A stretch of DNA of 26,128 nucleotides from positions 1-26,128 of the IMG/VR virus record IMGVR_UViG_3300032240_002528; one strand, 5' to 3'. Position numbers and translations under genes: made by a program. Shown here piece by piece: positions 9,465 to 24,917 of the stretch. How positions within the stretch are numbered: position 1 is the first letter of the stretch; each line of letters starts with the position of its first letter. This DNA is from a virus. Below the pieces are notes generated by a model. That model was given only the letters and a program-made list of their open reading frames with translations, had not been told where the DNA came from and did no database searches.

Positions 9465-11060
9465 TTAAACAGTTTCTAAACCGTGAACGATCACTTTACC
9501 ATAGAATTCTGGACGAACCATTTTCTTAGCGTAACGAGTCATTAAACCTTTACGTGGAGTAAATGTTGTTGGATCGTACACTAATGGAGTCATCATTACT
9601 GGGATGTATGGAGCAAATACAGCACCTGTTTCCAAGAACTGAGCACCTTTGTAACCCATCAAGATGATGTTTTCAGTGAAGTAAGGGTTTTTATAAACTT
9701 TGTAACGGCTGTTTAAAGAACCGATCTTTTGGATACCGAAATTGAATTCAGCTTTATCACCATCACCATCAGAAGCAAATCCTGGGATTGATTCTAAGAT
9801 TGTAGCAACAGTTGGAGATACTACTAAGAAGTTAGCACCACCACGCATTGTTAATTGGTGAATTTTGTTAGATACTTTTTGTAACTTAGTACCTAAAGTT
9901 TGGAACCAACCACCTTGAGTGTTGTAGAATGTGTTTGTTAAAGAAGCGAAAGCGCTACCGTTCCAAGCCACATTGTTTTGAGCTGACCAGTACTCAGTTG
10001 TTGAAGTTGGTACATTCTTGATCAACATTTCTAAGATTTCTAAATCGATTTCCATAGAGATGTATTGGCTCATTAAGCTAGTTAATTCAGCTTCAGCATC
10101 AATGCTATGGTAAGCGTTTAAATCTTGAGCGAATTCTGGAGTCCATTGTGCTTTTAACTTACGAGTTTTAGCAACAACTGCTTCAGACTTCATGTTAACG
10201 TCTAATGAAGGGATAACGATTTGAGAAGCGCTATTAGCGTTAGGTACGCTATAATCAGCTCTATCTTCGAAATCACCACGAGCGTTATCACGGTTTGCTT
10301 TGTTGAAGAACAATACTACGTTTTCTTTAGCACCACCATCTACTACGTAGATAACGTTGTTTCCAGAAACTTTAGTGTATTGAGGTAAAACTTTAGTTTC
10401 GTCAGCAGAAGAACCACTGATGAAAGTACCACGTACTGCTTCTAAATCTAAATCAGAAATGATTGCAGCATCTGTGATAGTTACTTTTTTCAAAGTAGTT
10501 AAATCTACAGTTGTGTCAAAGTTAACATCAGCTAATGTAGCAGAAGCAGTAGCAACTGAAGCAGAAGCAAATGATTGAGAGAATTGGTTGATTGAATAAC
10601 CAAATTTACCAACACCATACAAACCTTTAGTTGTATCAGTTGATTTTAAATCAGCAGAAGAACCATATAAAGATCCTGCGAATTTTTTCTTATCTGTACC
10701 ATACTTGAAATCAAGATAGAAGATAAGACCTGAAGGTAAGCTCATTGATTGAACTGAAACGAATTCTTTTGCGCTAATATCACCGAATACACGACGAACT
10801 AACGGTAAAGCAACTCCAGCCCAGTTTTCACCGAAACCAGCAGTGAAAGTTGCAGCACCACCACCGATACCAGTTTGGTTGCTCTCAACTACTAATTGCT
10901 TAGCTTGGTTTTCTAATAAAATAGCCATGTTGTTTTTCTCAACTTCGCCTTTAAGACCTTCTAAAAGGCCAGACTTAGTCCACTTAGAGACTAAAGTGTT
11001 AGCTGTATCCATTACACGAGCGTAAGGGTTAGCTGATTCTAATAATTGTTGAATTTCCAT
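9465..11060 (-). CDS. 23: Major capsid protein, T4 gp23-like, 531 aa
   Basis: HK97-fold capsid subunit of the T4 type. Hallmarks: WAGVALPLVRRVFGDISAKE (T4 gp23 MGMVRRAIPNLIAFD), VQSMSLPSG followed by YLDFKYGT, LKAQWTPEFAQDLNAYHSID (T4 LKAAYSIELAQDLRAVHGMD), IGSLNSRYKVYKNPYF, ILMGYKGAQFLETGAVFAPY, and TFTPRKGLMTRYAKKMVRP near the end. Length 531 against about 521 in T4. The first 59 residues are helical and charged and resemble the N-terminal arm that T4 gp21 removes. The likely cut is after E59 in LVVESNQTG; LLE at 48-50 is an alternative. Right after it comes GGGAATFTAGFGENWAG, which has a counterpart in a 373-aa protein of the prohead operon. The gene follows the scaffold by 25 bases with no separate promoter motif and ends at a strong terminator. 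Confidence 0.96.
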   Translation of the reverse strand: MEIQQLLESANPYARVMDTANTLVSKWTKSGLLEGLKGEVEKNNMAILLENQAKQLVVESNQTGIGGGAATFTAGFGENWAGVALPLVRRVFGDISAKEFVSVQSMSLPSGLIFYLDFKYGTDKKKFAGSLYGSSADLKSTDTTKGLYGVGKFGYSINQFSQSFASASVATASATLADVNFDTTVDLTTLKKVTITDAAIISDLDLEAVRGTFISGSSADETKVLPQYTKVSGNNVIYVVDGGAKENVVLFFNKANRDNARGDFEDRADYSVPNANSASQIVIPSLDVNMKSEAVVAKTRKLKAQWTPEFAQDLNAYHSIDAEAELTSLMSQYISMEIDLEILEMLIKNVPTSTTEYWSAQNNVAWNGSAFASLTNTFYNTQGGWFQTLGTKLQKVSNKIHQLTMRGGANFLVVSPTVATILESIPGFASDGDGDKAEFNFGIQKIGSLNSRYKVYKNPYFTENIILMGYKGAQFLETGAVFAPYIPVMMTPLVYDPTTFTPRKGLMTRYAKKMVRPEFYGKVIVHGLETV

Positions 11061-11085: not shown

Positions 11086-12123
11086 TTAATATTTTGTTAT
11101 ACCTGCTAACTTCTGGAATCTAGAAATTTGTTCGTTTGTTTCAACGATTTGTTTGCTAGGTGCATTGCCAGCTGGTTTTGAAGCGAATCCTTTAATGATT
11201 CCTTCTTTAACTATACTTTTAGAAGATTCTTTAGCATCTAGAGACTCGTTAAGAGCTTCGAATACTAATTTAGCTTCGTTTGGTGTAGTTGCTTTATCAA
11301 AGGAGTTAATTACTTTGATTTTGTTTTCTTCAGATAAATTTTTAGCTTTGAAAATCTTGTTAACATATAATAACTTAGCGTTCAATAAGTTAACTTCATT
11401 CAATTCGTTACGTAAAGTTTCGATTGTAGCAATAGCTTCGTCTAATTCTTTATCGTCTTTTTTAGCTTTCTTAGCTTCATATACTTCGCCATCAGTTGCA
11501 TCTTCTTCATCTAAAGCATCTAATTCAGCTAATAATTCTTCTAAGTTAATTTCAGCATCTGAAGCGTCTGGAGAGCTCATATCATCTAAATTGATTGCAT
11601 CGTCATTATTTCCAGTATCGTTTTGGTGAACTGCTTCACCTTCTTCGTCAGCTTCAGTTTCATTTTCTTCAGCTTCTAATTCAGAATCAACGATGTCTTT
11701 AATAATGTCTTTTAAATCTTCAATAGATAAGTCAGCTACCGACTTTTCTTCTTCTTCTTCTTCACCTTCTTCAGATTCTTCATCTTCAGTTGGTTCTTCT
11801 TCTTCTTCGGATTCTTCTTCTTCTTTAGCTTCGTTGATTTCTTCATCAGAACCTTCTTCAAGTTCTAATTCAGCTAAAAACTCATCTAAATTTAATTCTT
11901 CATCCATGTTTTCTTTGCCTTCTTCTTCGTAGGCAGCTACTTCTTCGATTTCTTCTTTCATTTCATCTTCATCTTTTGCCATTTCTTCTAATTTAGAAGC
12001 TAACATTGATTGTAAATGAGGAGTTAAAGTTTCTTCAAGAGCAGCTTTTGCATTAACTAACGCAGCTTCGCGAATAGTTTTTGCTTCGGCAATTGCTTGC
12101 TTAAACAATTCTTTGTTTGTCAT
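11086..12123 (-). CDS. 22: Prohead core scaffolding protein, T4 gp22-like, 345 aa
   Basis: Directly upstream of the major capsid gene, as gene 22 is in T4. Residues 1-65 are helical (MTNKELFKQAIAEAKTIREA), residues 65-225 extremely acidic with long Glu/Asp runs, and residues 225-320 a predicted coiled coil (IATIETLRNELNEVNLLNAK). It ends ISRFQKLAGITKY. The acidic, helical build and many L-x-E sites suit a core protein chopped up by the prohead protease before packaging. T4 gp22 is about 269 aa, so this one is larger because of the acidic block. The same RxQKLAGI tag is found on three other proteins of the region. AAGGA lies upstream of the ATG. The call rests on composition and position; T4 gp22 similarity itself is weak. 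Confidence 0.8.
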   Translation of the reverse strand: MTNKELFKQAIAEAKTIREAALVNAKAALEETLTPHLQSMLASKLEEMAKDEDEMKEEIEEVAAYEEEGKENMDEELNLDEFLAELELEEGSDEEINEAKEEEESEEEEEPTEDEESEEGEEEEEEKSVADLSIEDLKDIIKDIVDSELEAEENETEADEEGEAVHQNDTGNNDDAINLDDMSSPDASDAEINLEELLAELDALDEEDATDGEVYEAKKAKKDDKELDEAIATIETLRNELNEVNLLNAKLLYVNKIFKAKNLSEENKIKVINSFDKATTPNEAKLVFEALNESLDAKESSKSIVKEGIIKGFASKPAGNAPSKQIVETNEQISRFQKLAGITKY

Positions 12124-12149
12124 TTTGTCCTTAAATTTAATTTCGGAAA

Positions 12150-12174
12150 TAAGCTTATTAGAGTGGGAAGCTTA
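12150..12174 (-). repeat. Inverted repeat in the scaffold-gene leader
   Basis: Perfect 7-base inverted repeat TAAGCTT/AAGCTTA with an 11-base loop, 27-51 bases before the scaffold ATG. No T-tract follows, so it is not a terminator. It could be a leader hairpin affecting scaffold and capsid expression; no protein-coding frame is seen here. Confidence 0.4.
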
Positions 12175-12210
12175 ATAGGGATTTGTATAATACCTGGAAC
12201 TACAATAAGA

Positions 12211-12237
12211 ATGGGTAGTCCATTTTAGGCTACCCAT
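12211..12237 (-). other. Stable hairpin downstream of the promoter-like motif, scaffold leader
   Basis: An 8-bp perfect stem ATGGGTAG/CTACCCAT with a further CC/GG pair across a bulge. Its outer edge overlaps the ATATTTAT motif, so a transcript starting near there would begin in or just before this hairpin. No T-run follows on the minus strand (TCTTATTG). A 5' stabilising structure is more likely than a terminator. Confidence 0.45.
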
Positions 12238-12243
12238 AAATAT
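12236..12243 (-). promoter_or_regulatory. ATATTTAT promoter-like motif before the scaffold-capsid unit
   Basis: The coding strand reads CATATATTTATGGG in the 157-base gap between the protease and scaffold genes. It is 112 bases from the scaffold ATG, the longest leader of all copies in the window. Confidence 0.5.
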
Positions 12244-12256
12244 ATGTAGATATGAA

Positions 12257-12272
12257 AAACCGCGAAGGGTTT
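12257..12272 (-). terminator. Weak terminator after the prohead protease gene
   Basis: On the minus strand AAACC/GGTTT with a CTTCGC loop is followed by TTC and continues AT-rich, starting 9 bases past the protease stop. Only five clear base pairs, so termination is probably partial. It fits the operon end deduced from the promoter-like motif just downstream. Confidence 0.45.
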
Positions 12273-12280
12273 CAATATGT

Positions 12281-12889
12281 TTAGCAAAGAGAGCAAACAC
12301 CAGTTTGATTACAGATAATTTCTGTAACTAGGCTGCTTACTTTACTATAATCTTTTGTAATTAATTGTTGTTTTCCTTCAGCTAATTTCATATATGCGTT
12401 AGGTGTACTTGGTACTGATACCAAATCCCAACATAATAATTCGAAATCATCTTGTACTTCAACTGTTTCACCCAATTGTTTAACACTACCCATACCTCTT
12501 GATGAGATACCTAATGGGATACCTGCTAATACAATTTCTTGTGCAATTTTACCTGCAGGTGTATTTAATAACATTAATTCACCCATAACATCGTTTCCTT
12601 CCCACCAAACCTTTGTGATTAGATGTGAAACGTTATTTAAGTTAATGATACCTGATTCTGGATGATCTAATTCACCTGTAGATGTTCTAGAAGCAATAGG
12701 TCCTTTTGTATAAACGTCTACTTGCTTTTTAAGAATGTCCATAGGATAAACACGGCCATTACCGTTTTTAACTTCAGCTTCCTGAAGTTTACCTTTTACA
12801 TACATTCTTCCATCACCATTACCTTTACCTTCAGTTAAAGATAACTTAGCAACGTGGAATGGGATATGATCTACTAATAATTGTTTCAT
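12281..12889 (-). CDS. 21: Prohead maturation protease, T4 gp21-like, 202 aa
   Basis: Serine protease of the herpesvirus-assemblin/T4 gp21 class that digests scaffold and trims capsid proteins in the prohead. NGNGRVYPMDILKKQVDVY is the N-terminal signature. GELDHPESG carries the likely catalytic H76, and GISSRGMGS (127-135) carries the likely nucleophile, S129 or S130. The LLCWDLVSVPSTPNAYM strand (151-167) holds D155. At 202 aa it is near T4 gp21 (about 212). The tail ends CNQTGVCSLC with three Cys close together, which is unusual for this family and could bind metal or be removed. Its ATG overlaps the previous stop (TAATG). It closes the prohead operon before the scaffold-capsid unit. Confidence 0.93.
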   Translation of the reverse strand: MKQLLVDHIPFHVAKLSLTEGKGNGDGRMYVKGKLQEAEVKNGNGRVYPMDILKKQVDVYTKGPIASRTSTGELDHPESGIINLNNVSHLITKVWWEGNDVMGELMLLNTPAGKIAQEIVLAGIPLGISSRGMGSVKQLGETVEVQDDFELLCWDLVSVPSTPNAYMKLAEGKQQLITKDYSKVSSLVTEIICNQTGVCSLC

Positions 12890-13710
12890 TATTTATTATT
12901 TTCTTCTTCTAATACTTCGCGCACAATACCTTCTAATGTTGCTTTAAATTTTTCAAAAGCAGCACCTAAATCTCTTTCACCAGTTCTAAATTGAGATGGT
13001 TTTGGGGTTAAGATATAAGCAATTTTCATTCCTGTATCTTCGTCATCAAGAATATCTTCTTCAATATCAAATTGAATTGATAATTTTTCATAAACACCTT
13101 GTGGTAATTTTTCCCAATATCCAAATTTTAAAACAGCATCTTCATTATGATTTTGTAATGTAATATCACCTGAGAATTGTTTTACTTGATTGTTTAAATC
13201 AATAAATTGAGCGGCTTGTTTTACTGCTTCGTTTGGTTGTTCGTTAGGAGCTAAATTTAAACCTGTTTCTTCTAATTCAGCAGATTCTTTTACAATTTCT
13301 TTAACTTTTTTCATACCGTTTTCGGTATCAACATCACTAGCTTTTTTAGCTTTTTTTACCTTAATTTTTTCAGGTTCAACAGCTTTACCAGATATGTTTA
13401 ATTGGCTATAATAAGAAGAATTTTTCTTCAAATTAGCATAAACAGTTTTTTTAGCTTTTTCAACATCACCACCATGTTTAGCTACTTCAGCTCTTAAACC
13501 TAAATCAACCTCAACTGGGTTGCAATTATGAGATTCCTCTTTTTTAGCCTCAGATAAAATACCTTTATTTTTAAGGATTTTAACTGAATCATCAAAGTTG
13601 GTTACATTAGTGATAAATTGAGGAAAAGTCATGCGGATATTTCTCATGAAATTCGCTTGTGAAATATTTCCTTCTAATAACTGGTTATATTGATTTTGTA
13701 TACTTTTCAT
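12889..13710 (-). CDS. Unknown prohead-operon protein, 273 aa
   Basis: No named family recognised. The first 55 residues (MKSIQNQYNQLLEGNISQAN, then NFDDSVKILKNKGILSEAKK) look like a conserved helical head; GNISQANFMRNIRMTFPQFI gives it a distinctive signature. The middle (110-185) is Lys/Glu-rich and probably disordered. The C-terminal part (190-255) has strands around FGYWEKLPQGVYEKLSIQFD and KIAYILTPKPSQF, followed by GAAFEKFKATLEGIVREVLE. The ending IVREVLEEE matches a helix motif present in three other proteins of the region. Located just before the protease with a TAATG overlap, so an internal head or core protein is likely. Confidence 0.65.
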   Translation of the reverse strand: MKSIQNQYNQLLEGNISQANFMRNIRMTFPQFITNVTNFDDSVKILKNKGILSEAKKEESHNCNPVEVDLGLRAEVAKHGGDVEKAKKTVYANLKKNSSYYSQLNISGKAVEPEKIKVKKAKKASDVDTENGMKKVKEIVKESAELEETGLNLAPNEQPNEAVKQAAQFIDLNNQVKQFSGDITLQNHNEDAVLKFGYWEKLPQGVYEKLSIQFDIEEDILDDEDTGMKIAYILTPKPSQFRTGERDLGAAFEKFKATLEGIVREVLEEENNK

Positions 13711-13722
13711 TTATATTTTATT

Positions 13723-14241
13723 TTAATCGCCTGTGTATTTACCAAATGCTGTTTGAACACCACCGTTAGGACCATATCTATCATCAAATGCGGATTGTGC
13801 TTTAGCTTTTTCTTCTGGTGTTCTTGTATCTGCTTTTGGTGCAGTTGGTTTATCTTCCATTGGTTTTAACTCAGCTGGTTTACCATCAATTTTTATTCTT
13901 TCTGGTTCGCCTATTAAGTCTTTAATGAAAATATTTTCTCTATCGTTGTATTTCCATTTTTGACCGTCTCCTCTATGAAGTGCTCCAAAAGCTTGTACTA
14001 CTTTATCTATTTTAACTGGAGTTCCGTCTTCGTCTACGGTTACTGTTTTACCGGCTGCAATAGCTTCTTTAGCTGCTTTTAAAATAGCATTTACATCACC
14101 ACTAGAGTATACAGCTTCTTCAACTATTTCTCTAACTAATGAACGAATTTGTGATTCATTTAAACCAGTATTTGCATCATCTTTGACTTCTAAGCCAGCC
14201 AATTTTTGCATTCTTTTAGCTTCGTTGATATATTGTTTCAT
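13723..14241 (-). CDS. Unknown prohead-operon protein with LAGL tag, 172 aa
   Basis: Not assigned to a family. It begins MKQYINEAKRMQKLAGLEVK: an I-x-E site at residues 5-7, similar in position to T4 capsid-targeting sequences (for example MKTYQEFIAE of the internal proteins), followed by the RMQKLAGL tag. Residues 27-44 (LNESQIRSLVREIVEEAV) carry a second shared helix motif. Residues 48-115 hold a small alpha/beta region (AIAAGKTVTVDEDGTPVKID). The C-terminal part is Pro/Lys-rich with DDRYGPNGGVQTAFGKYTGD. It is soluble with no membrane segment. Candidate for a protein carried into the prohead; the function is unknown. Confidence 0.62.
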   Translation of the reverse strand: MKQYINEAKRMQKLAGLEVKDDANTGLNESQIRSLVREIVEEAVYSSGDVNAILKAAKEAIAAGKTVTVDEDGTPVKIDKVVQAFGALHRGDGQKWKYNDRENIFIKDLIGEPERIKIDGKPAELKPMEDKPTAPKADTRTPEEKAKAQSAFDDRYGPNGGVQTAFGKYTGD

Positions 14242-14252
14242 TGTTTTAATTT

Positions 14253-14387
14253 TTATTTTCCTTGTCCTCTATATTTTTTTGGTCTTTGTTCTTTTGGGCC
14301 ATAACTTTTTTTACCTGAAGTTGGACCTGATTTTCTTTTACCAAAAGAGATTTTTTGAGAAGATGCGGCTGATTTTGCTTTTGCCAT
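14253..14387 (-). CDS. Small basic protein of the prohead operon, 44 aa
   Basis: Reading the minus strand from ATG 14387 gives 44 codons and TAA at 14253. The protein starts MAKAKSAASSQKISFGKRKS and ends PKKYRGQGK; about one third of residues are Lys or Arg, with no hydrophobic stretch. The ATG overlaps the stop of the 373-aa gene (TAATG), and 11 bases separate its stop from the next ATG, so it fits the operon exactly. I recall similar short Lys/Gly/Arg proteins ending in YRGQG in the head region of T4-like environmental phages, which could not be checked here. Binding to DNA or to the acidic scaffold is plausible from the charge but is inference. Confidence 0.75.
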   Translation of the reverse strand: MAKAKSAASSQKISFGKRKSGPTSGKKSYGPKEQRPKKYRGQGK

Positions 14388-15508
14388 TATTGGTTCAAGT
14401 TTTTAATTTTATTATTAAGTTGGTTAACCATTTCTGAGATACTAGCAACATTCTTTTGTGTTGCTTTCCAATATTTTATTCCTTCTTCTCCTTCACTTAA
14501 TTCTTGCTTCATACGAGATGTATATTCAACAATACGATCAATTTCAGATAATTTACGTTTTACTTCACGAATTGCTTTATGTAATTGTTCAGATTTTGTT
14601 CTAAACGTTACTTCTTTTTTAAATTTACCGTATGATACTTCACTAAGTATACCGGCTTCAATCATATCATTTAATTTCATCTCTTTTATTTTTTCAAGTT
14701 TACTAGGCATTACATTTGTAGCAGGTAATCCTTTAAGATTTTTTAATCTAACCAAACCATTAGAAAGAATACTTAATACTTCCCATTCTTGGTTTTCATA
14801 TTTAACTTTATCACCTACTTTAAATTCACCTACAGCTTCAAATATTTTTTTATAATCAAACATTTTTGAGTGTTTAGGTAGCGTTAAATCCGCTACCGTC
14901 CAACCCATTTTTTTTAAAAATTTTACTGCTCTATTTTCACCTTTTGGCTTTTTCTTTCCAAAAGCAAATGGTGTAGCATAATTTTCACCAGAACCTGCAC
15001 TAAAAGAAGCACCACCACCAGTTACATTTTCCTCGTTCATCATTATTTCACGAGCATATGCTTTGATAGCAGATTTTAATGCTGCTTTTTTATCTTCTTT
15101 AATACCAGATACTGTACGACCTTGATATTGTTTTTTTAAATAATCAACCATTTTGGCATTCATATTAAAATCAGGCTCTAATGGTTTATCATCAGATTCT
15201 GCTTCTATAGATGCTGCCATTGCTTTCATAAATCCATTTTCAACAGTATCATCTACAATTGCAGACATTTCATCATCAATATCTAACTTATCTAACCAGG
15301 TATTTGTTTTTTTAATATCTGGTTTTGCAATTGCTGCTCTTATAAAATCAAAAGTTGTTTTTGCATTTGAAGCACCTGGTATTAATCCTAGTACTTGATC
15401 TAAAGCAAATGACTTACCTTGTGAAACAATAGCTTGTCCTTTTTGTTTAAGAGCAATTGTTTTAATAGCTTTTTTTAAATCACCATATGTGTTGAGATTC
15501 AATGCCAT
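14387..15508 (-). CDS. Unknown prohead-operon protein with capsid-like segment, 373 aa
   Basis: Family not named. Residues 1-100 are helical (KTNTWLDKLDIDDEMSAIVD is typical). Residues 135-160 end YAREIMMNEE, a shared helix motif, and lead into NVTGGGASFSAGSGENYATP (161-180), closely matching GIGGGAATFTAGFGENWAGV after the presumed cleavage site of the major capsid protein. Residues 228-262 (FKVGDKVKYENQEWEVLSIL) resemble an SH3/KOW-like barrel. From 290 to the end the chain is coiled coil (LHKAIREVKRKLSEIDRIVE). The modular build and position between portal and protease suggest an internal or core protein that the protease may process. It is linked to both neighbours by TAATG overlaps. Confidence 0.65.
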   Translation of the reverse strand: MALNLNTYGDLKKAIKTIALKQKGQAIVSQGKSFALDQVLGLIPGASNAKTTFDFIRAAIAKPDIKKTNTWLDKLDIDDEMSAIVDDTVENGFMKAMAASIEAESDDKPLEPDFNMNAKMVDYLKKQYQGRTVSGIKEDKKAALKSAIKAYAREIMMNEENVTGGGASFSAGSGENYATPFAFGKKKPKGENRAVKFLKKMGWTVADLTLPKHSKMFDYKKIFEAVGEFKVGDKVKYENQEWEVLSILSNGLVRLKNLKGLPATNVMPSKLEKIKEMKLNDMIEAGILSEVSYGKFKKEVTFRTKSEQLHKAIREVKRKLSEIDRIVEYTSRMKQELSEGEEGIKYWKATQKNVASISEMVNQLNNKIKNLNQ

Positions 15509-15789
15509 TATTTATATCCTAACTTAGTTAATACTTGATCAACTTGACTTCTAACTGTAGATTTGCTAATTTTTCCGGGTTGGAACCCTAAAGATTGACA
15601 CCAAACTTCAAAAGCTCCAGGAAATTCCTGAATGCTATTAATATTTTTAGATTTGCTAGCTACAGTTGTTGCAGAGGCTTGTGCTCTACCTAAAGCAGCT
15701 ACATCACTAGGTACGGCCGCTGTTGGAGCTGCTGGTGTTCCTAGAGGTGCTATTTCATGTATGCCTGCTAATTTTTGTAATCTATTCAT
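15508..15789 (-). CDS. Unknown prohead-operon protein with LAGI tag, 93 aa
   Basis: Not recognised. It opens MNRLQKLAGIHEI, the N-terminal form of the tag found in three other proteins. An Ala/Pro/Thr-rich linker follows (15-45), then a compact domain (52-93) with FEVWCQSLGFQPGKISKSTV and QVDQVLTKLGYK, which may be a small helical fold. No membrane segment. The ATG is one base past the upstream stop (TAAGATG) and its stop overlaps the next ATG (TAATG). An internal head protein is possible but the function is unknown. Confidence 0.62.
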   Translation of the reverse strand: MNRLQKLAGIHEIAPLGTPAAPTAAVPSDVAALGRAQASATTVASKSKNINSIQEFPGAFEVWCQSLGFQPGKISKSTVRSQVDQVLTKLGYK

Positions 15790-15790
15790 C

Positions 15791-16645
15791 TTATTTAACT
15801 GATTTTAATTCTGCTACTAATTGATGGTAAGTTAAAAGTGAGATAATATCTTCATCTTTTACACTTTGATTTTTATCTAATGGTTTAATTAAATTAACTA
15901 CTTCGTTGATTTTAATTTTAATAGTACTATCTTCAACCTTTTCAACTAATTTAATTAATTGTTTTTTAACACTTTCAATATTATTATTAACAAACTCTTT
16001 TAATTTTGTAGTACTTGATACATTATTAATGAATTCTTTTAATACTAATTTTTGATCTGTAGTTAAATCACCATATTTCTCATTGAATTTTTCAATAAGC
16101 ATTTTATAAGCTAAAATACGAGTTCCTTTATCCATTGAACTGTATTCTTCCATTACACGATCCTTAACTTCTTCTTTATTTACTTCTTTGCGAGTAATAT
16201 GTTCAAGTAAAGTTACTTTATTATCAATAACACTAGCTGGATCTACAAATTCTAATGTAGAATAAGCTTCCATTAATGTGTAAACAGCGGCGTGTTGCTT
16301 ATAGTTGTTTACTTTAGCTTTAAAAAATTCTTCTAAATTATAATGTGACTTAATTTCTTTAATCAAGTTATATTTTTCTTTACGAAGAGCAGTACGGTTT
16401 AAACGTGCGTGGATTTCTAAAGTTGTGTTGATTAATGATTCAGCTTTACCCTCAGAAATTGCTTTATTAGCAATTAATGTTTGATATAATTTATATTCCT
16501 TAGCTAATTCAGATTTGCTAAAATACTTTTTAATTAATGGCAAAGATGCGGAATCTTTACCAGAAATTGTGTCGGATGTTACTTGTCTTAATAATAATTC
16601 AAATAAAATCCCAGTATTTTTATATTTGTTGTGTTTTATTTTCAT
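15791..16645 (-). CDS. Unknown helical protein opening the prohead operon, 284 aa
   Basis: Not assigned to a named family. Almost entirely alpha-helical and charged; the opening KHNKYKNTGILFELLLRQVT followed by SDTISGKDS is distinctive. Heptad-like patterns recur in LKEFVNNNIESVKKQLIKLV. No membrane segment and no catalytic motif. It is the first gene after the portal, behind a promoter-like motif 22 bases upstream of the ATG, and leads the seven-gene set ending in the protease. By position it is a candidate for an initiator, core or portal-associated protein, with no sequence evidence to choose among them. Confidence 0.65.
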   Translation of the reverse strand: MKIKHNKYKNTGILFELLLRQVTSDTISGKDSASLPLIKKYFSKSELAKEYKLYQTLIANKAISEGKAESLINTTLEIHARLNRTALRKEKYNLIKEIKSHYNLEEFFKAKVNNYKQHAAVYTLMEAYSTLEFVDPASVIDNKVTLLEHITRKEVNKEEVKDRVMEEYSSMDKGTRILAYKMLIEKFNEKYGDLTTDQKLVLKEFINNVSSTTKLKEFVNNNIESVKKQLIKLVEKVEDSTIKIKINEVVNLIKPLDKNQSVKDEDIISLLTYHQLVAELKSVK

Positions 16646-16666
16646 AAAAAGTATGTAATCACTGCG

Positions 16667-16675
16667 TATAAATAT
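16667..16675 (-). promoter_or_regulatory. ATATTTATA promoter-like motif before the prohead operon
   Basis: The coding strand reads ACATATTTATACGC in the 31-base gap after the portal gene, 22 bases before the ATG of the 284-aa gene. Confidence 0.55.
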
Positions 16676-16676
16676 G

Positions 16677-18539
16677 TTATTTTTCTATACCCTTGATATT
16701 ATCTTCGTTTAATAAATCGGATTCTACTGGTTTTGTACTTTCATACAATGTTATTTTCTTAGCCTCAGCAGCTTCTTTAGCTCTTTTTAATTCAGCTAAT
16801 GCTAATGGTGAACCACCTTTATAAGCTTGTTGCATTGGGTTTTTATCTTGATTAGCAGTCATATTGTATTCTTTACTACCAATTGGATCTTTACCAAATG
16901 AACTTTTCTGAGTACCAAATATAGATGCTTTTTGTGTTGGGCGACCTACTGGATCCTTTTCATCGTATCCTACAGGTACAGCGCCTTGTCCATTTCTACC
17001 TTTACCATATAATGAAGCTAAATCATGTGGTGTACCAAATGATCTACCTGTTTTAGCTGGGTCATTACCTTCATTTTCAACTTGTTGAAGTCTAAATGCA
17101 CGTTTTTTATCTTCTAAAACTAAATCACGGTATTCTTCTACTTGATCATCACTAAACTGGAATATTCTATCGTATATAAAATCTGATGGGATAATTCCTG
17201 TGTCAAGAGCATCTTTAGCAAGTGATACTTTTTCCTTCCACATTGCAATTTGTTCTTGCTGGTAGATGATAGAAGGTGGTGTTAATGTTAATTCAAAGCT
17301 TGTTAAAGAATCACCATCAAATCCTTGTGTATATAAATGCACTAAGGCAATTTTATATAATTCAGATACAAGTACCTTTTGTACACGTTCAATTGTACGA
17401 GCAAATCTAATATCTTCAGCAGCTAATGTAGCTTTACCTGTTAAATCTTTTTCAAATCCAAAGAACGCTTTAGGTACCTTAAGAGCAGCTAACATTTCAT
17501 CACGTAGGAAGTTAACATCCTCAATACCATTATATTCTAAACCTTTTAAAGTATCGATTTTAGTATTTTGGTTTGCACCTCTAACAGGAATAATAAAGTC
17601 TTCTAATGAATTTTGAATATTGAAACGTAAATTATATTCACCAGTTTGAGCATCCATAAATGGAGTCTTTTTCATTTTATTGGTGATACGTTCCATATAG
17701 TTATCAACTTCGTGTGCTGGTATTCCACCAACGTCTACGTAGAAGATACGCTTTTCAGGCGATCTCATAATACGATGAATTAACATCGCATCTTTCATTA
17801 AAGTATATTGCTTATAAACTTTACGAGCCGGTTCAATAAACGAACGTCCATAAGGAAGATAATTAGCATCTGCATATAATCTAAAGTGAGCAATTTCATA
17901 ATTTTCAAAACGCTTTTTCATACCACTCTTATCCATATGGATTGTAGATGCTAAAGCATTTGGATCGTATTCATAATAAACCTCGAATGGGTTTTCAGGA
18001 TTTAAACCTTCTTTTCTAGCTAATTCATATGATGATAAAGGCATAACATTATATACCCCTACCTCACTATTAATTTCTAAAAATAAATAAAAATCTCCGT
18101 ATTTACACATTTGGCGCGTCCAAGGCCAAAGGTTAAATTCTACGTTTAAAATATCGTAGAATAAGTTATAAAGTACTCTTTGTACTTTTTCATCTGAAGA
18201 ACGAATTTGTAATACTTCTCCAGCTTCATTTTTTAATGTAGTTTCATCAGCAACAATGTCAAGAGCAGAAGCAATAATTGATTCTGAATCCATTGCTTCG
18301 TAATCATTATATAATTGTGTTCTTAATGTCTGATAGTTAATAGCAGGATTGAACATAGCAGACATGCTAGTTCTGTGTAGACGTGTAAAACGGTCTACTA
18401 AGCTATTAGTTTGTGCACTTCCATAGGCTTGAACACGGTCCGTGTCCATCACTTTTAATTGAGATCCACCAACGTTTCTTACGATGACGTCAGTTGAAAA
18501 CAATCTCCTCAGCCTTGAAAATAAATCTGTATTAGCCAT
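16677..18539 (-). CDS. 20: Portal protein, T4 gp20-like, 620 aa
   Basis: Forms the dodecameric portal ring at the special vertex, the docking site of terminase and later of the neck. The T4 gp20 signature is clear: MRSPEKRIFYVDVGGIPAHE at about 258-277, followed by MDAQTGEY, SLEDFIIPVRGANQNTKIDT, then GLEYNGIEDVNFLRDEMLAA and LKVPKAFFGFE. The clip and wing regions precede these (WTRQMCKYGDFYLFLEINSE). The last 130 residues, from LQQVENEGNDPAKTG on, are Gly/Lys-rich and probably disordered, which makes it longer than T4 gp20 (524). The extreme C-terminus has SDLLNEDNIKGIEK, with another LNE tripeptide. It follows the terminase by 33 bases, with no sheath or tube genes between. Confidence 0.95.
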   Translation of the reverse strand: MANTDLFSRLRRLFSTDVIVRNVGGSQLKVMDTDRVQAYGSAQTNSLVDRFTRLHRTSMSAMFNPAINYQTLRTQLYNDYEAMDSESIIASALDIVADETTLKNEAGEVLQIRSSDEKVQRVLYNLFYDILNVEFNLWPWTRQMCKYGDFYLFLEINSEVGVYNVMPLSSYELARKEGLNPENPFEVYYEYDPNALASTIHMDKSGMKKRFENYEIAHFRLYADANYLPYGRSFIEPARKVYKQYTLMKDAMLIHRIMRSPEKRIFYVDVGGIPAHEVDNYMERITNKMKKTPFMDAQTGEYNLRFNIQNSLEDFIIPVRGANQNTKIDTLKGLEYNGIEDVNFLRDEMLAALKVPKAFFGFEKDLTGKATLAAEDIRFARTIERVQKVLVSELYKIALVHLYTQGFDGDSLTSFELTLTPPSIIYQQEQIAMWKEKVSLAKDALDTGIIPSDFIYDRIFQFSDDQVEEYRDLVLEDKKRAFRLQQVENEGNDPAKTGRSFGTPHDLASLYGKGRNGQGAVPVGYDEKDPVGRPTQKASIFGTQKSSFGKDPIGSKEYNMTANQDKNPMQQAYKGGSPLALAELKRAKEAAEAKKITLYESTKPVESDLLNEDNIKGIEK

Positions 18540-18563
18540 TTTTTTATTTTAGTATGTATAACA

Positions 18564-18571
18564 ATAAATAT
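18564..18571 (-). promoter_or_regulatory. ATATTTAT promoter-like motif before the portal gene
   Basis: The coding strand reads AGAATATTTATTG in the 33-base gap between terminase and portal, 24 bases before the portal ATG. Confidence 0.55.
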
Positions 18572-18572
18572 T

Positions 18573-20150
18573 CTAACCCAATAACCATCGTATATCTTCT
18601 GCGTTTCCATGAACATCATCTATTTTGTATGGGTTGCCACCAGGTATCCATTGACCACCTCCATACATTTGATCCCCAGTTCTTCTGAAGTTTAATAAAC
18701 TTGCAGTTGCTAGATCACGACCTATTTGCGCAAATCTGGATGCTGTATCTCTAATAAATAAGCCCATTGATAATGATAATACTAAGTCATCATTATATCC
18801 ATTTTGTGCTTGCCCTTTACCATGCATCCAAATAAACACTCTTAATTCCTCAAGTAAGCGTTTTGAATGAAAGGTAAATGACTTATCTCGAAGGTACGAC
18901 TCCATTTTTGAGATAACAAGTGGTCTTGTCTTTGCTGATGTAGTAAATCCAGGAACTGTTTGTCCTGAGTCTAATTTTGATAGGTATTTGTCAGCACTTA
19001 ACTCACCATATGAGCGAGGTGAATAGTATAAATTCGCGTACTCGCGGTCTATAATAGTATTTACGACATCCCAACCGATATTAGCATTTTCCACCACTAA
19101 AAGCGCATTATTATATTCAGTAGCAACTGATACTAACATGTTTCCATATTCACGTGTACCTATTTGAGATTTAAATTCAGCCACTTGTTGACAGGCCTCT
19201 AAATCAATAACTTGAAATGCAGAATAGTCACTTCCATCTCCACGGGCAACGTCAGCTGATACAATATAGTTTTTATTGTAGTCAGGATATTGCCAAATCC
19301 AAAAATCACCTCCCATGAATCGTCGTTCAACAGGATCCATTATAAACCCATCATAATATTCTAAGGTTTCTGGGTCAATTACTGTTGCTCCTGATCCTAG
19401 AAAGTCACAATCATATTCCTGCGCAAAATCTCTTGCAGTCATATTTTCCTTTTCATTTCTAACCCAGGCATCGTCTCTATCAGGGTGAACATCCCATTTT
19501 AATTGAATTGGAACAAAACTATTTTTACTTAATTCTGCTTCAACCCAAGTTTTATGGAACCAGTTACCAACACCGTTTGGAGAAGATAATGCAACGCAAC
19601 CACCACCTGTTGAAATTGTAGGTTTAATAGCGGTATAAATTTTATCAATGCCGTCAATAAAGGCGGCCTCATCCATGATCAACCAAGATACTGCAAATGA
19701 ACGACCAGCGTCGCTAGAAGCAGAGGTCGCTTTAATAAACGAACCATTTGATAGTTTTAGGGATGTTTGGTTTGATGCTACTGGTTTAGAACCTTTTAAC
19801 CATGAAGGTAAGTTATTATACATGAATTGAACCTTTTCAACCATGTTTTGTGCTGTAAGTTGCTTAGTTGCAATACATAATATTGCTTTATCCTTATGAA
19901 ATAACATTAACCACAAAGCATAACCAGCACATAAGGTAGAAATACCTAGCTGACGAGATTTATTAATAATGTTGTAGTCATTTGATCTAAATGATTTTAA
20001 TACATCTTCCTGGAATGGGTATAGATGGAATAAAATTCTACCTTTAATTGGGTGGGTGATGAAACAGTATTTCCTAAAGAAATGGACAGGATCTGAAGCA
20101 CATTTAATGTATTCCTGTTTAATTATGTCTTTTATATTTTGGTCGCTCAT
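18573..20150 (-). CDS. terL: Terminase large subunit, T4 gp17-like, 525 aa
   Basis: ATP-driven DNA packaging motor and headful nuclease. ATPase half: IINKSRQLGISTLCAGYALW contains the Walker-A-like SRQLGIST (65-72), WLIMDEAAFID holds the Walker B and catalytic Glu (157-162), and ALSSPNG (187-193) is the coupling motif. Nuclease half, RNase H-like: YIVSADVARGDGSDYSAFQV with D300, VVENANIGWDVV with E354, and NGYNDDLVLSLSMG with D454/D455. Length 525 against about 610 in T4; the missing part is mainly N-terminal. It has its own promoter-like motif and stands alone between a terminator and the portal. No small terminase subunit was identified in the window. Confidence 0.96.
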   Translation of the reverse strand: MSDQNIKDIIKQEYIKCASDPVHFFRKYCFITHPIKGRILFHLYPFQEDVLKSFRSNDYNIINKSRQLGISTLCAGYALWLMLFHKDKAILCIATKQLTAQNMVEKVQFMYNNLPSWLKGSKPVASNQTSLKLSNGSFIKATSASSDAGRSFAVSWLIMDEAAFIDGIDKIYTAIKPTISTGGGCVALSSPNGVGNWFHKTWVEAELSKNSFVPIQLKWDVHPDRDDAWVRNEKENMTARDFAQEYDCDFLGSGATVIDPETLEYYDGFIMDPVERRFMGGDFWIWQYPDYNKNYIVSADVARGDGSDYSAFQVIDLEACQQVAEFKSQIGTREYGNMLVSVATEYNNALLVVENANIGWDVVNTIIDREYANLYYSPRSYGELSADKYLSKLDSGQTVPGFTTSAKTRPLVISKMESYLRDKSFTFHSKRLLEELRVFIWMHGKGQAQNGYNDDLVLSLSMGLFIRDTASRFAQIGRDLATASLLNFRRTGDQMYGGGQWIPGGNPYKIDDVHGNAEDIRWLLG

Positions 20151-20165
20151 ATACTGATTGTTGTA

Positions 20166-20174
20166 TATAAATAT
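20166..20174 (-). promoter_or_regulatory. ATATTTATA promoter-like motif before the terminase gene
   Basis: The coding strand reads TATATATTTATATAC right after the upstream terminator and 16 bases before the terminase ATG. Confidence 0.55.
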
Positions 20175-20184
20175 ATAAAAGAAA

Positions 20185-20202
20185 CCCCAACTTGCGTTGG
20201 GG
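20185..20202 (-). terminator. Rho-independent terminator upstream of terminase
   Basis: On the minus strand a 7-bp stem CCCCAAC/GTTGGGG with a GCAA tetraloop is followed by TTTCTTTT. It ends the unit containing the 386-aa and 231-aa genes. Confidence 0.9.
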
Positions 20203-20234
20203 TCGGTCCTACAATGCTATCATAGGAGAGGTAC

Positions 20235-20930
20235 TTATTTTGCTAACATTAAATAACCTAAACCACCAATTACAATATAGCTTCCTATACGTTGGAATTT
20301 AGATTTTACTTTTAATTTCTTTAATTGTAAATCAATTTGATTATATTGATCTTCCCAACCAGCAATTTCTTTATCTTTGTTGGCTAAGATTAATTTATAT
20401 TTACCTTCTTTACTTTCAAATTTAGTAATAACACTATCTTTAACTGTTACTTTTGCTTCTAATGTGTTGATAGTACTATCTTTTAATACAATAATTTGTT
20501 TAGCACCATCTAATTCCACTAAATCCTTAGCAGCAGATACTAATACTGGTTGTGCTAATGGTAATGGGTTTGTAACTGTATCTTTAGAATATCTTGTGTT
20601 AAAGAAAGTTACTAACTGGTGTTCTTGTAAATTGTCAATTTTATTTTTTTCAATTTCAACCGTTTCAACAATTTTAACAACTTTTGCTTTTTGATGTTCT
20701 ACTTTATAAGTTAATTCTTCACTAACTTGATTTAATGAATCAATAGCAGCATCATCTTTTTTAATTTCTAAAGATAAAGAATCGTTTACTTTATGTAAAC
20801 TATCTACTTGGTTTAAAAATGCTTTATGGCTAGCGTTGCTGCCGCATTTTTCAAAAACTACACTAATAATTGCAATAACAGCTACTGCTAAAACAATTTT
20901 TGGGAAATGTTTTTTTAATTTTGATAACAT
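20235..20930 (-). CDS. Two-membrane-segment coiled-coil protein, possibly spanin-like, 231 aa
   Basis: Residues 1-10 are basic (MLSKLKKHFP). Residues 11-27 form a membrane segment (IVLAVAVIAIISVVF). Residues 36-110 and 150-210 are long coiled coils with Lys/Glu/Asp heptads. Residues about 214-229 (IGSYIVIGGLGYLML) form a second hydrophobic segment at the C-terminus. There is no lipobox, although C29 follows the first segment. An Rz-type inner-membrane spanin has the first half of this layout, and a single protein anchored at both ends would resemble a unimolecular spanin, but these usually use an N-terminal lipoprotein signal. It could instead be an unrelated membrane or injection protein. 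Next to terminase, outside any visible lysis cassette; no endolysin was seen. Confidence 0.55.
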   Translation of the reverse strand: MLSKLKKHFPKIVLAVAVIAIISVVFEKCGSNASHKAFLNQVDSLHKVNDSLSLEIKKDDAAIDSLNQVSEELTYKVEHQKAKVVKIVETVEIEKNKIDNLQEHQLVTFFNTRYSKDTVTNPLPLAQPVLVSAAKDLVELDGAKQIIVLKDSTINTLEAKVTVKDSVITKFESKEGKYKLILANKDKEIAGWEDQYNQIDLQLKKLKVKSKFQRIGSYIVIGGLGYLMLAK

Positions 20931-20934
20931 ATTT

Positions 20935-22095
20935 TTATTTTTTAATTCCTGCGTAATATTGCATTCTGTGTTTAAGACCTTCGTTTAAATCATCCATTTC
21001 ATCTTCATCCTCAAGTGGATTTTCAATTGGTGGAGGTAATTCTTTACCAGTTTTCTTAGCAATATCTTTTTGTAAATATTCTGATTTTTTAACTAAAGCG
21101 TCAATTCTTTGTTCTAGGCTTGCTTTTAAATCAGTTAAACCTTTAATTTCTCTAGCTGTACTACCTACATCATTGATATCACCTGGTGTACTTCTATATC
21201 GTTTTGCTTTTAATAAGTTACTTTTAACACTTGTTAAACGATCAGATAATTTTTTATATTCCATCCAATCTTGGAAATCTTCGTTTGATATAGTAACATT
21301 AGATCTTGATCTTTCACCACCTGCAATTTCTGGTTCTGGTTCTTCACCTGAAGCTCTTGCTGCTGCAAATGCTGCATCTACTTCATCATCAGACATTTCT
21401 TCTCTTCCTGATAATCCTAATGCATCTAACTCATCTTGAGTAAACATACCATTACCTGTAGAAGGTCTTCTGCCTCTTGGGTTATATAATTCTTCACCAT
21501 TACTGTTTGTTGCTGGAGCAGCTGCGGGTGCTTCTGGTCTTGGATTTGTTAAACGAGGTGCTGCTTGATCTGTAGATGAAACAATAACACCTGCATCAAC
21601 TAATTCCATAAAATCTTTGTTGATTGGATTTTGTTTATTATAACCCATATTACCCGCTACATTCATTTTAGATACTGCTGAACCTGCTGCTTGAATAGCT
21701 GCTAAGATTTTTGCTTTCTTACCTGTATATCCTGCAATCTGAGCATCAGTAACATTATCTGCTAACTGATAACGAACACCTACGTTTGCCATTTCTTCTA
21801 AATCTAAAGAAGAAACACCCGGTTTGCTTACATTTTGTAATTTAAGACCTAATCCTTGAATTTTTTTATTTATAGCAACCACTTCAGCATCTTGAGCTGG
21901 TTTATCAGCTGCTGATGGTTGTTTTGCAGATAATTCGGATTTTTTCTTATTTAAGGCTGCTATTTGGGTTTGTATAGCTGCTTTTGCTCTATCCTGTGCT
22001 GCTTGATCTTCAGCTTGACCTTCGTCAATAACTTCTAACAAGGCTTCACGGATAATATCTTGTAGCTCAGATTTTTTCATAGTATCGTTATTCAT
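20935..22095 (-). CDS. Unknown protein with core-protein-like ends, 386 aa
   Basis: No family recognised. The start (MNNDT, or MKKSEL at 22080) leads into KKSELQDIIREALLEVIDEG, a helix motif shared with prohead-operon proteins, and the end reads LNEGLKHRMQYYAGIKK, a variant of the LAGI tag. Residues 40-90 and about 285-350 are coiled coil. Residues about 104-175 (KKAKILAAIQAAGSAVSKMN, then KDFMELVDAGVIV) look like a winged helix. An Ala/Pro linker and an acidic stretch fill the middle. Its overall build matches the scaffold and core set even though it lies upstream of terminase. Internal head protein is a hypothesis. Confidence 0.6.
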   Translation of the reverse strand: MNNDTMKKSELQDIIREALLEVIDEGQAEDQAAQDRAKAAIQTQIAALNKKKSELSAKQPSAADKPAQDAEVVAINKKIQGLGLKLQNVSKPGVSSLDLEEMANVGVRYQLADNVTDAQIAGYTGKKAKILAAIQAAGSAVSKMNVAGNMGYNKQNPINKDFMELVDAGVIVSSTDQAAPRLTNPRPEAPAAAPATNSNGEELYNPRGRRPSTGNGMFTQDELDALGLSGREEMSDDEVDAAFAAARASGEEPEPEIAGGERSRSNVTISNEDFQDWMEYKKLSDRLTSVKSNLLKAKRYRSTPGDINDVGSTAREIKGLTDLKASLEQRIDALVKKSEYLQKDIAKKTGKELPPPIENPLEDEDEMDDLNEGLKHRMQYYAGIKK

Positions 22096-24674: not shown

Positions 24675-24917
24675 TTAAGAAAGAATATTAGCTAATTTCT
24701 TTAATCTTTCTTGTAATTTTTGTTCTTGTGTATTAACAATAGAATCATAATCACTCATTGTTAATGTTTTTCCTTCTGCACTTGCTGCTATTGCTTTTTC
24801 AGTTACTGTATGTAAATCCATATCTGTTTTAGCGTCTTCACGAGCATATTCTAATAAACGAATAAACAATGGAATATCCACTGTTATTTTATCTGCTGGG
24901 TTAAAATTATGTTCCAT
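24675..24917 (-). CDS. Unknown conserved-looking small protein, 80 aa
   Basis: Sequence MEHNFNPADKITVDIPLFIR followed by LLEYAREDAKTDMDLHTVTE has the even, charged-helical look of a conserved phage protein; I recall similar sequences from environmental T4-like phages but cannot verify that. The C-terminal helix (TQEQKLQERLKKLANILS) is amphipathic and may oligomerise. No enzymatic motif and no membrane segment. The ATG is one base past the upstream stop (TAATATG), giving a unit with the nuclease-fold candidate. Confidence 0.65.
   Translation of the reverse strand: MEHNFNPADKITVDIPLFIRLLEYAREDAKTDMDLHTVTEKAIAASAEGKTLTMSDYDSIVNTQEQKLQERLKKLANILS

Follow-up and report, generated by a model that had tools for sequence, protein, structure and literature searches.

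In phage T4, a short N-terminal peptide, the capsid targeting sequence (CTS), packages unrelated small proteins and is then cut by gp21 (PMC3012670, PMC9958956), and the N-terminal targeting sequences of T4 and P1 package foreign proteins as well (PMC3012670, PMC9958956, PMC9024508). For P1 DarB, the first 30 residues are enough to target a reporter to the capsid (PMC9024508). In SPN3US and related giant phages the N-terminal propeptides of ejection proteins are removed by the prohead protease, and two diverged proteins of this group have identical N-termini (PMC5694885). The T4 CTS was reported not to be conserved in other core proteins, and protein sorting into the T4-type core was described as still mysterious (PMC9958956). 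Here, we analyzed 26,128 nucleotides of an uncultured virus (IMG/VR record IMGVR_UViG_3300032240_002528, positions 1 to 26,128; the whole stretch is referred to as the window) that contain a T4-like head gene cluster. We found that a short terminal peptide with the consensus [RK]-[M/W/L/F]-Q-x-[L/Y]-A-G-[I/L] (hereafter the tag) is common to the predicted prohead scaffold and to many unrelated proteins, and we consider it likely that this peptide acts as a modular label for prohead docking (capsid targeting).

The head cluster of the window lies on the minus strand in the order terminase, portal, small open reading frames (ORFs), gp21-type protease, acidic ORF and gp23. An earlier note on this DNA had reported four terminal tags, and its positions proved correct to within a few codons, since the six-frame translation of the window held four exact matches to R.Q[KY][LY]AG[IL], all on the minus strand, in plausible genes and at gene ends (cf. 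Table 1). Furthermore, a profile derived from relatives scored 9 bits or more at exactly five places in the window, each of them terminal; the fifth carrier, an 80-amino-acid (aa) protein, had been overlooked in the note. Relatives' proteins similar in size to it end in KRMQKLANIN, KRIQYIAGITK or KRMQRLAGILK, each directly followed by a stop codon. Neither the 80-aa nor the 172-aa protein gave a match in Pfam and PHROG searches.

The acidic 345-aa ORF has the features of a T4-type gp22, in that it is acidic, helical and encoded between the protease and gp23. When the ORF just before gp23 was taken as the scaffold in every locus, 78 distinct tails were obtained, and all 78 carried the tag or a close variant at their end (R-x-[Q/K/R]-x-[L/I]-A-[G/N/D]-[I/L]); 53 of them were flagged automatically, and the other 25, with LAN, LAD or a near variant, were judged by eye. 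The earlier note had rightly placed the scaffold of the window among the tag carriers and had not noticed that the tag is universal on the scaffolds of relatives. Tagged scaffolds include those of the two nearest isolates, Flavobacterium phage immuto (portal 55% and gp23 57% identical to the window) and Microcystis phage Mel-JY01, and that of the 484-kb phage LR756508, which additionally encodes two small N-tagged ORFs. Nearly all scaffold tags sit 5-10 residues after [IVL]xE, and the I-V-E preceding the tag of the window is conserved at 1.00, 0.97 and 0.94, respectively, in 36 scaffolds. AlphaFold2 predicted helices, a disordered linker at about residues 303-330 and a terminal helix at residues 331-339 of the 345-aa protein. 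In the predicted scaffold of immuto, encoded by gene 204 (MW353175.1:125626-126867), the GenBank label is DNA polymerase phi-like protein.

A disordered linker (residues 352-369) followed by a short helix at the tag (residues 367-381) was also predicted for the C-tagged 386-aa protein; as the AlphaFold2 models were of low overall confidence, only local helix content was used, and a Foldseek search with the 386-aa model gave no match, its best E being 0.21. Within this family, no part is better conserved than the tag: in 40 homologues at 24-80% identity, Y-A-G-I makes up four of only six invariant columns. Within one genome, the codons differ between tag copies while the residues stay constant.

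Relatives were fetched via the protease and the portal, and nine near-complete related genomes were used for strict-motif counts. These genomes held 36 matches versus 0.48 expected from composition, and 35 of the 36 (one after correction of an upstream start) lay in or beside terminal zones, which account for 11% of positions; the nominal binomial p of about 1e-32 is overstated, as scaffold tails share ancestry. The earlier note had named equal frequencies of internal and terminal copies as speaking against a docking role, and this outcome was not observed. With the profile at a threshold of at least 14 bits, 53 places were detected in the nine genomes versus 0.2 in shuffled proteins. When IMG/VR was scanned using a DNA pattern blind to position and homology, there were 122 contexts among the matches listed, of which 84 were N-terminal, 30 C-terminal, one open-ended and seven other; four of these seven have an ATG directly upstream of the tag, the remaining ones being L168, L271 and L253 (L and G numbers are our own handles). 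In tblastn searches against isolated phages, the bare tag retrieved only immuto, and the scaffold tail as a query added Mel-JY01. In the control of the DNA pattern on bacterial genomes, most matches were internal or lay in short frames of doubtful reality, which makes its N-terminal counts uninformative; clear phage-like tags occurred only in L293 and L326. Altogether, 194 tagged bodies were grouped into 118 sequence families at E 1e-3, including 94 singletons. The tag is therefore confirmed and more widespread than first reported, and its proposed modularity holds far beyond the window.

Some of the unusual contexts merit a description of their own. The proteins L078 (a 355-aa ORF), L268:2589-3338 and L009:10614-12122 resemble fused modules with internal tags at the apparent joints, flanked by [IL]xE sites in a polyprotein-like manner. 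L253 and the N-terminal cases L188 and L222 are long proteins of a different family, in which KRMQALAG lies about 22-26 residues in, after YGxFxxTGID.

The sequence around N-terminal tags follows a recurrent grammar. In 192 distinct contexts, with the tag mostly at residue 3-12, the consensus was M-K-x-x-[IL]-[NS]-E-x-K-R-M-Q-x-L-A-G-[IL]-[IL]-x-E, and conservation faded beyond about +15. An [ILV]xE motif preceded the tag at -5/-6 in 142 of the 192 contexts and followed it at +7/+8 in 161. The earlier note, although right about the terminal motif, had not noticed these protease-type sites. The gp23 propeptide junction of 95 relatives reads [LI][VI][TVS]E↓[ASTNQG] (the arrow marks the cleavage point), and since LITES, IITEA and INE↓A at tags obey this rule, they fit the same protease. 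A gp21-type protease (PF03420) in the same cluster and a matching predicted site at the tag are thus both present.

Table 1. Tag copies, tagged proteins, predicted protease sites and head genes of the window (nucleotide positions; ↓, predicted cleavage point).
Feature	Position	Strand	Basis or remark
Major capsid protein gp23	9465..11060	-	PF07068, 2.3e-75
LVVE↓S, predicted gp23 propeptide junction	10884..10895	-	Served as rule for protease specificity
345-aa acidic helical ORF, predicted prohead scaffold	11086..12123	-	Directly before gp23, after protease
Tag RFQKLAGI	11098..11121	-	3 residues before stop of 345-aa ORF (predicted scaffold, gp22 position)
IVE↓T, predicted protease site in linker before scaffold tag	11140..11148	-	Scaffold alignment
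Prohead protease, gp21-type, Peptidase_S77	12281..12889	-	PF03420, E=3.7e-31; phrog_207, 8.6e-55
172-aa N-tagged candidate core/cargo protein	13723..14241	-	5-member family in relatives
LNE↓S, predicted site after tag of 172-aa protein	14155..14163	-	Sequence and N-tag/gp23 junction rule
Tag RMQKLAGL	14191..14214	-	Residue 10 of 172-aa ORF
INE↓A, predicted site before tag of 172-aa protein	14221..14229	-	Sequence; N-tag [ILV]xE statistics
93-aa N-tagged candidate core protein	15508..15789	-	12-member family; several keep tag at residue 3
IHE↓I, weak candidate site overlapping tag end of 93-aa protein	15754..15762	-	Sequence only
Tag RLQKLAGI	15760..15783	-	Residue 3 of 93-aa ORF
386-aa C-tagged protein	20935..22095	-	Upstream of terminase; homologue alignment and AlphaFold2
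Tag RMQYYAGI	20944..20967	-	C-terminal, 2 residues before stop of 386-aa ORF
LNE↓G, predicted site before tag of 386-aa protein	20980..20988	-	Sequence; LDE/LNE common in family
80-aa C-tagged protein	24675..24917	-	C-terminal sequence QERLKKLANILS
Fifth, degenerate tag RLKKLANI	24684..24707	-	C-terminal in 80-aa protein; profile 14.6 bits

Of 100 tagged representatives scanned with Pfam, PHROG and PADLOC, nearly all remained without a match, and a few gave single weak ones. The notable exception is one cargo, L214:4266-4826, which is Acb1-like by Pfam (PF23474, 29.1 bits versus a cut-off of 27), Acb1 acting against CBASS (cyclic-oligonucleotide-based antiphage signaling system), and which contains the two H-x-T motifs of a two-histidine (2H) protein, HCT at 65 and HMT at 140. 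A similar HCT/HIT pair in L073:3895-4359, an N-tagged 155-aa protein adjoining the protease gene that had no Pfam match, suggests that this is possibly another 2H-type enzyme. Many cargoes are probably ejected effectors. The tagged proteins L020, L039, L078 and L051 have a hydrophobic stretch and an internal lipobox-like LASCG/LSSCG, which is odd for a cytoplasmic core protein.

Since the tag is found on both scaffold and cargo, is terminal, sits on a flexible arm and is accompanied by head-protease sites, a prohead docking label is its best explanation. The cargo would thus carry a copy of the C-terminal tail of the scaffold, and this copy probably serves as an address that brings proteins into the particle and can be detached there. 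The corresponding model predicts a binding partner as well as the encapsidation, cleavage and ejection of tagged proteins. In it, the tag would be a short terminal helix on a flexible linker with the scaffold C-terminus as its universal home, where it would most likely anchor the scaffold to an assembly partner. The scaffolds of herpesviruses and of the P22/phi29 type bind the shell with a C-terminal helix, which in herpesviruses is removed by the maturation protease, and by analogy with other scaffolds the partner is most likely the inner face of gp23, with the portal and the scaffold as rival candidates. Unrelated proteins with the tag at either end would bind the same sites as the scaffold tail and be drawn into the core during prohead formation; the gp21-type protease would then cut the flanking [ILV]-x-E sites and free scaffold and cargo from the tag, and small cargoes would stay in the head to be ejected with the DNA, like T4 internal proteins.

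The same scheme with another partner, in which the tag is an adaptor to the scaffold, the portal or an initiation complex and loading precedes the shell, overlaps in probability with docking to gp23. We regard it as possible but doubtful, as scaffold tails in other tailed phages and in herpesviruses more usually bind the shell; in its favor, the scaffold bears the same peptide as the cargo, and the T4 core assembles on the portal (PMC9958956). It is improbable that the tag serves chiefly for recognition by the prohead protease, either as its docking site or as an extended substrate, and that its carriers are the proteins that need cutting. Most tags are indeed flanked by [ILV]xE sites that match the gp23 junction, but this junction is itself a site without a tag in the same phages, some tags have one flanking site or none, and the most invariant residues of C-terminal tags are those of the tag itself, several residues off the site. 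The occurrence of the tag in many unrelated genes, with near-identical copies in immuto and G011, could also reflect spread by recombination between gene ends without any role in assembly, e.g., as a mobile 5' segment or as a signal that acts in translation or on stability. We give this very little credence, because C-terminal copies exist, which excludes a translation-start signal, because copies of the same genome differ in codons and keep their residues, and because the tag is universal and conserved on the scaffolds of diverged phages.

Several observations weigh against the docking interpretation. The scaffold was named from its position and shape, and Pfam and PHROG gave the 345-aa ORF no gp22 match; the scaffolds of T4 and S-MbCM6 are without the motif. 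A few tag copies are internal (L168 and L271), and further ones lie in the fusions L009/L010, L078 and L268, while many tagged genes are tens of kb away from the head cluster. A literature search for proteomics of tagged phages, including immuto virions, found none, so that none of the tagged proteins is a known virion component. Finally, the tag is missing from the prohead protease of the window and from its other ORFs at core positions, and hence it cannot be the sole route into the core.

If the docking interpretation is true, reading the tag in a sequence would be enough to list the injected proteins of phages that have not been grown. For a large uncultured group, the proteins that are probably ejected could be recognized in this way; they comprise more than 100 families, mostly of unknown function. 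The chances seem to us about even that a whole group of uncultured aquatic T4-like phages uses one portable peptide, copied from the docking tail of the scaffold, as an either-end loading code with which each phage equips its particle with fast-changing ejected effectors, counter-defense enzymes such as Acb1-like proteins among them. Since scaffold and cargo bear the same peptide, a simple question arises, namely whether the tag binds the partner of the scaffold tail, and immuto is a cultured phage that offers a test system.

Two other recurrent N-terminal modules were seen, and these phages may carry several targeting labels. M-K-K-S-x-L-x-x-[IL]-I-[RK]-E-x-[LI] was N-terminal in 12 of 17 matches in the nine genomes; its carriers are immuto genes 191 and 199, the 386-aa protein of the window, which thus combines this module at its N-end with the tag at its C-end, and G006, G011 and G007. 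All five matches to F-[DN]-L-[KR]-x-[FY]-L-x-E-N-[KR]-L-T-x-N-[SA] were N-terminal (immuto genes 194 and 195 plus two more; G007). Elsewhere, positions 1-2376 of the window encode a long collagen-like glycine-repeat protein (GPQGNQGP-type) open at the window edge, and in the head cluster of Mel-JY01, the annotation of a gene between the protease and gp23 (L161:20734-20961) is ribosomal protein S21.

Among described systems, the T4 CTS is close in anatomy. T4 IPII and IPIII start with MKTYQEFIAE↓A, and the 172-aa protein of the window with MKQYINE↓A; like the CTS, N-terminal tags are short N-terminal peptides ending in [IL]xE↓A, and their carriers would be core proteins. The likeness in sequence is limited to this M-K-x..[IL]xE start, however: profile scores for T4 IPII, IPIII, gp22, gp67 and gp68 were all negative, the R-x-Q-x-L-A-G core is missing from the T4 internal proteins, and the motif was not found in T4 and cyanophage core proteins. 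The T4 analogy drawn by the earlier note therefore holds for function and anatomy, not for sequence. A likeness between the T4 gp22 tail VSVYAKVAS and VSRWQKLAG was dropped, as the profile gave it no support. P1 DarB resembles the N-tagged proteins in having an N-terminal capsid targeting sequence, whereas the Dar proteins have no consensus and a separate scaffold is apparently absent in P1 (PMC9024508). The SPN3US propeptides differ in being mostly longer than 100 residues and without a short common motif, and a counterpart of the T4 scaffold is unconfirmed there. A literature search with four spellings of the tag found no occurrence in the papers covered. We know of no copies of the herpesvirus, P22 or phi29 scaffold tails on dozens of unrelated cargo proteins. 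A tag common to cargo and scaffold tail appears to be undescribed, and it differs from the T4 CTS in that it is also C-terminal, is common to the scaffold and occurs on over 100 families.

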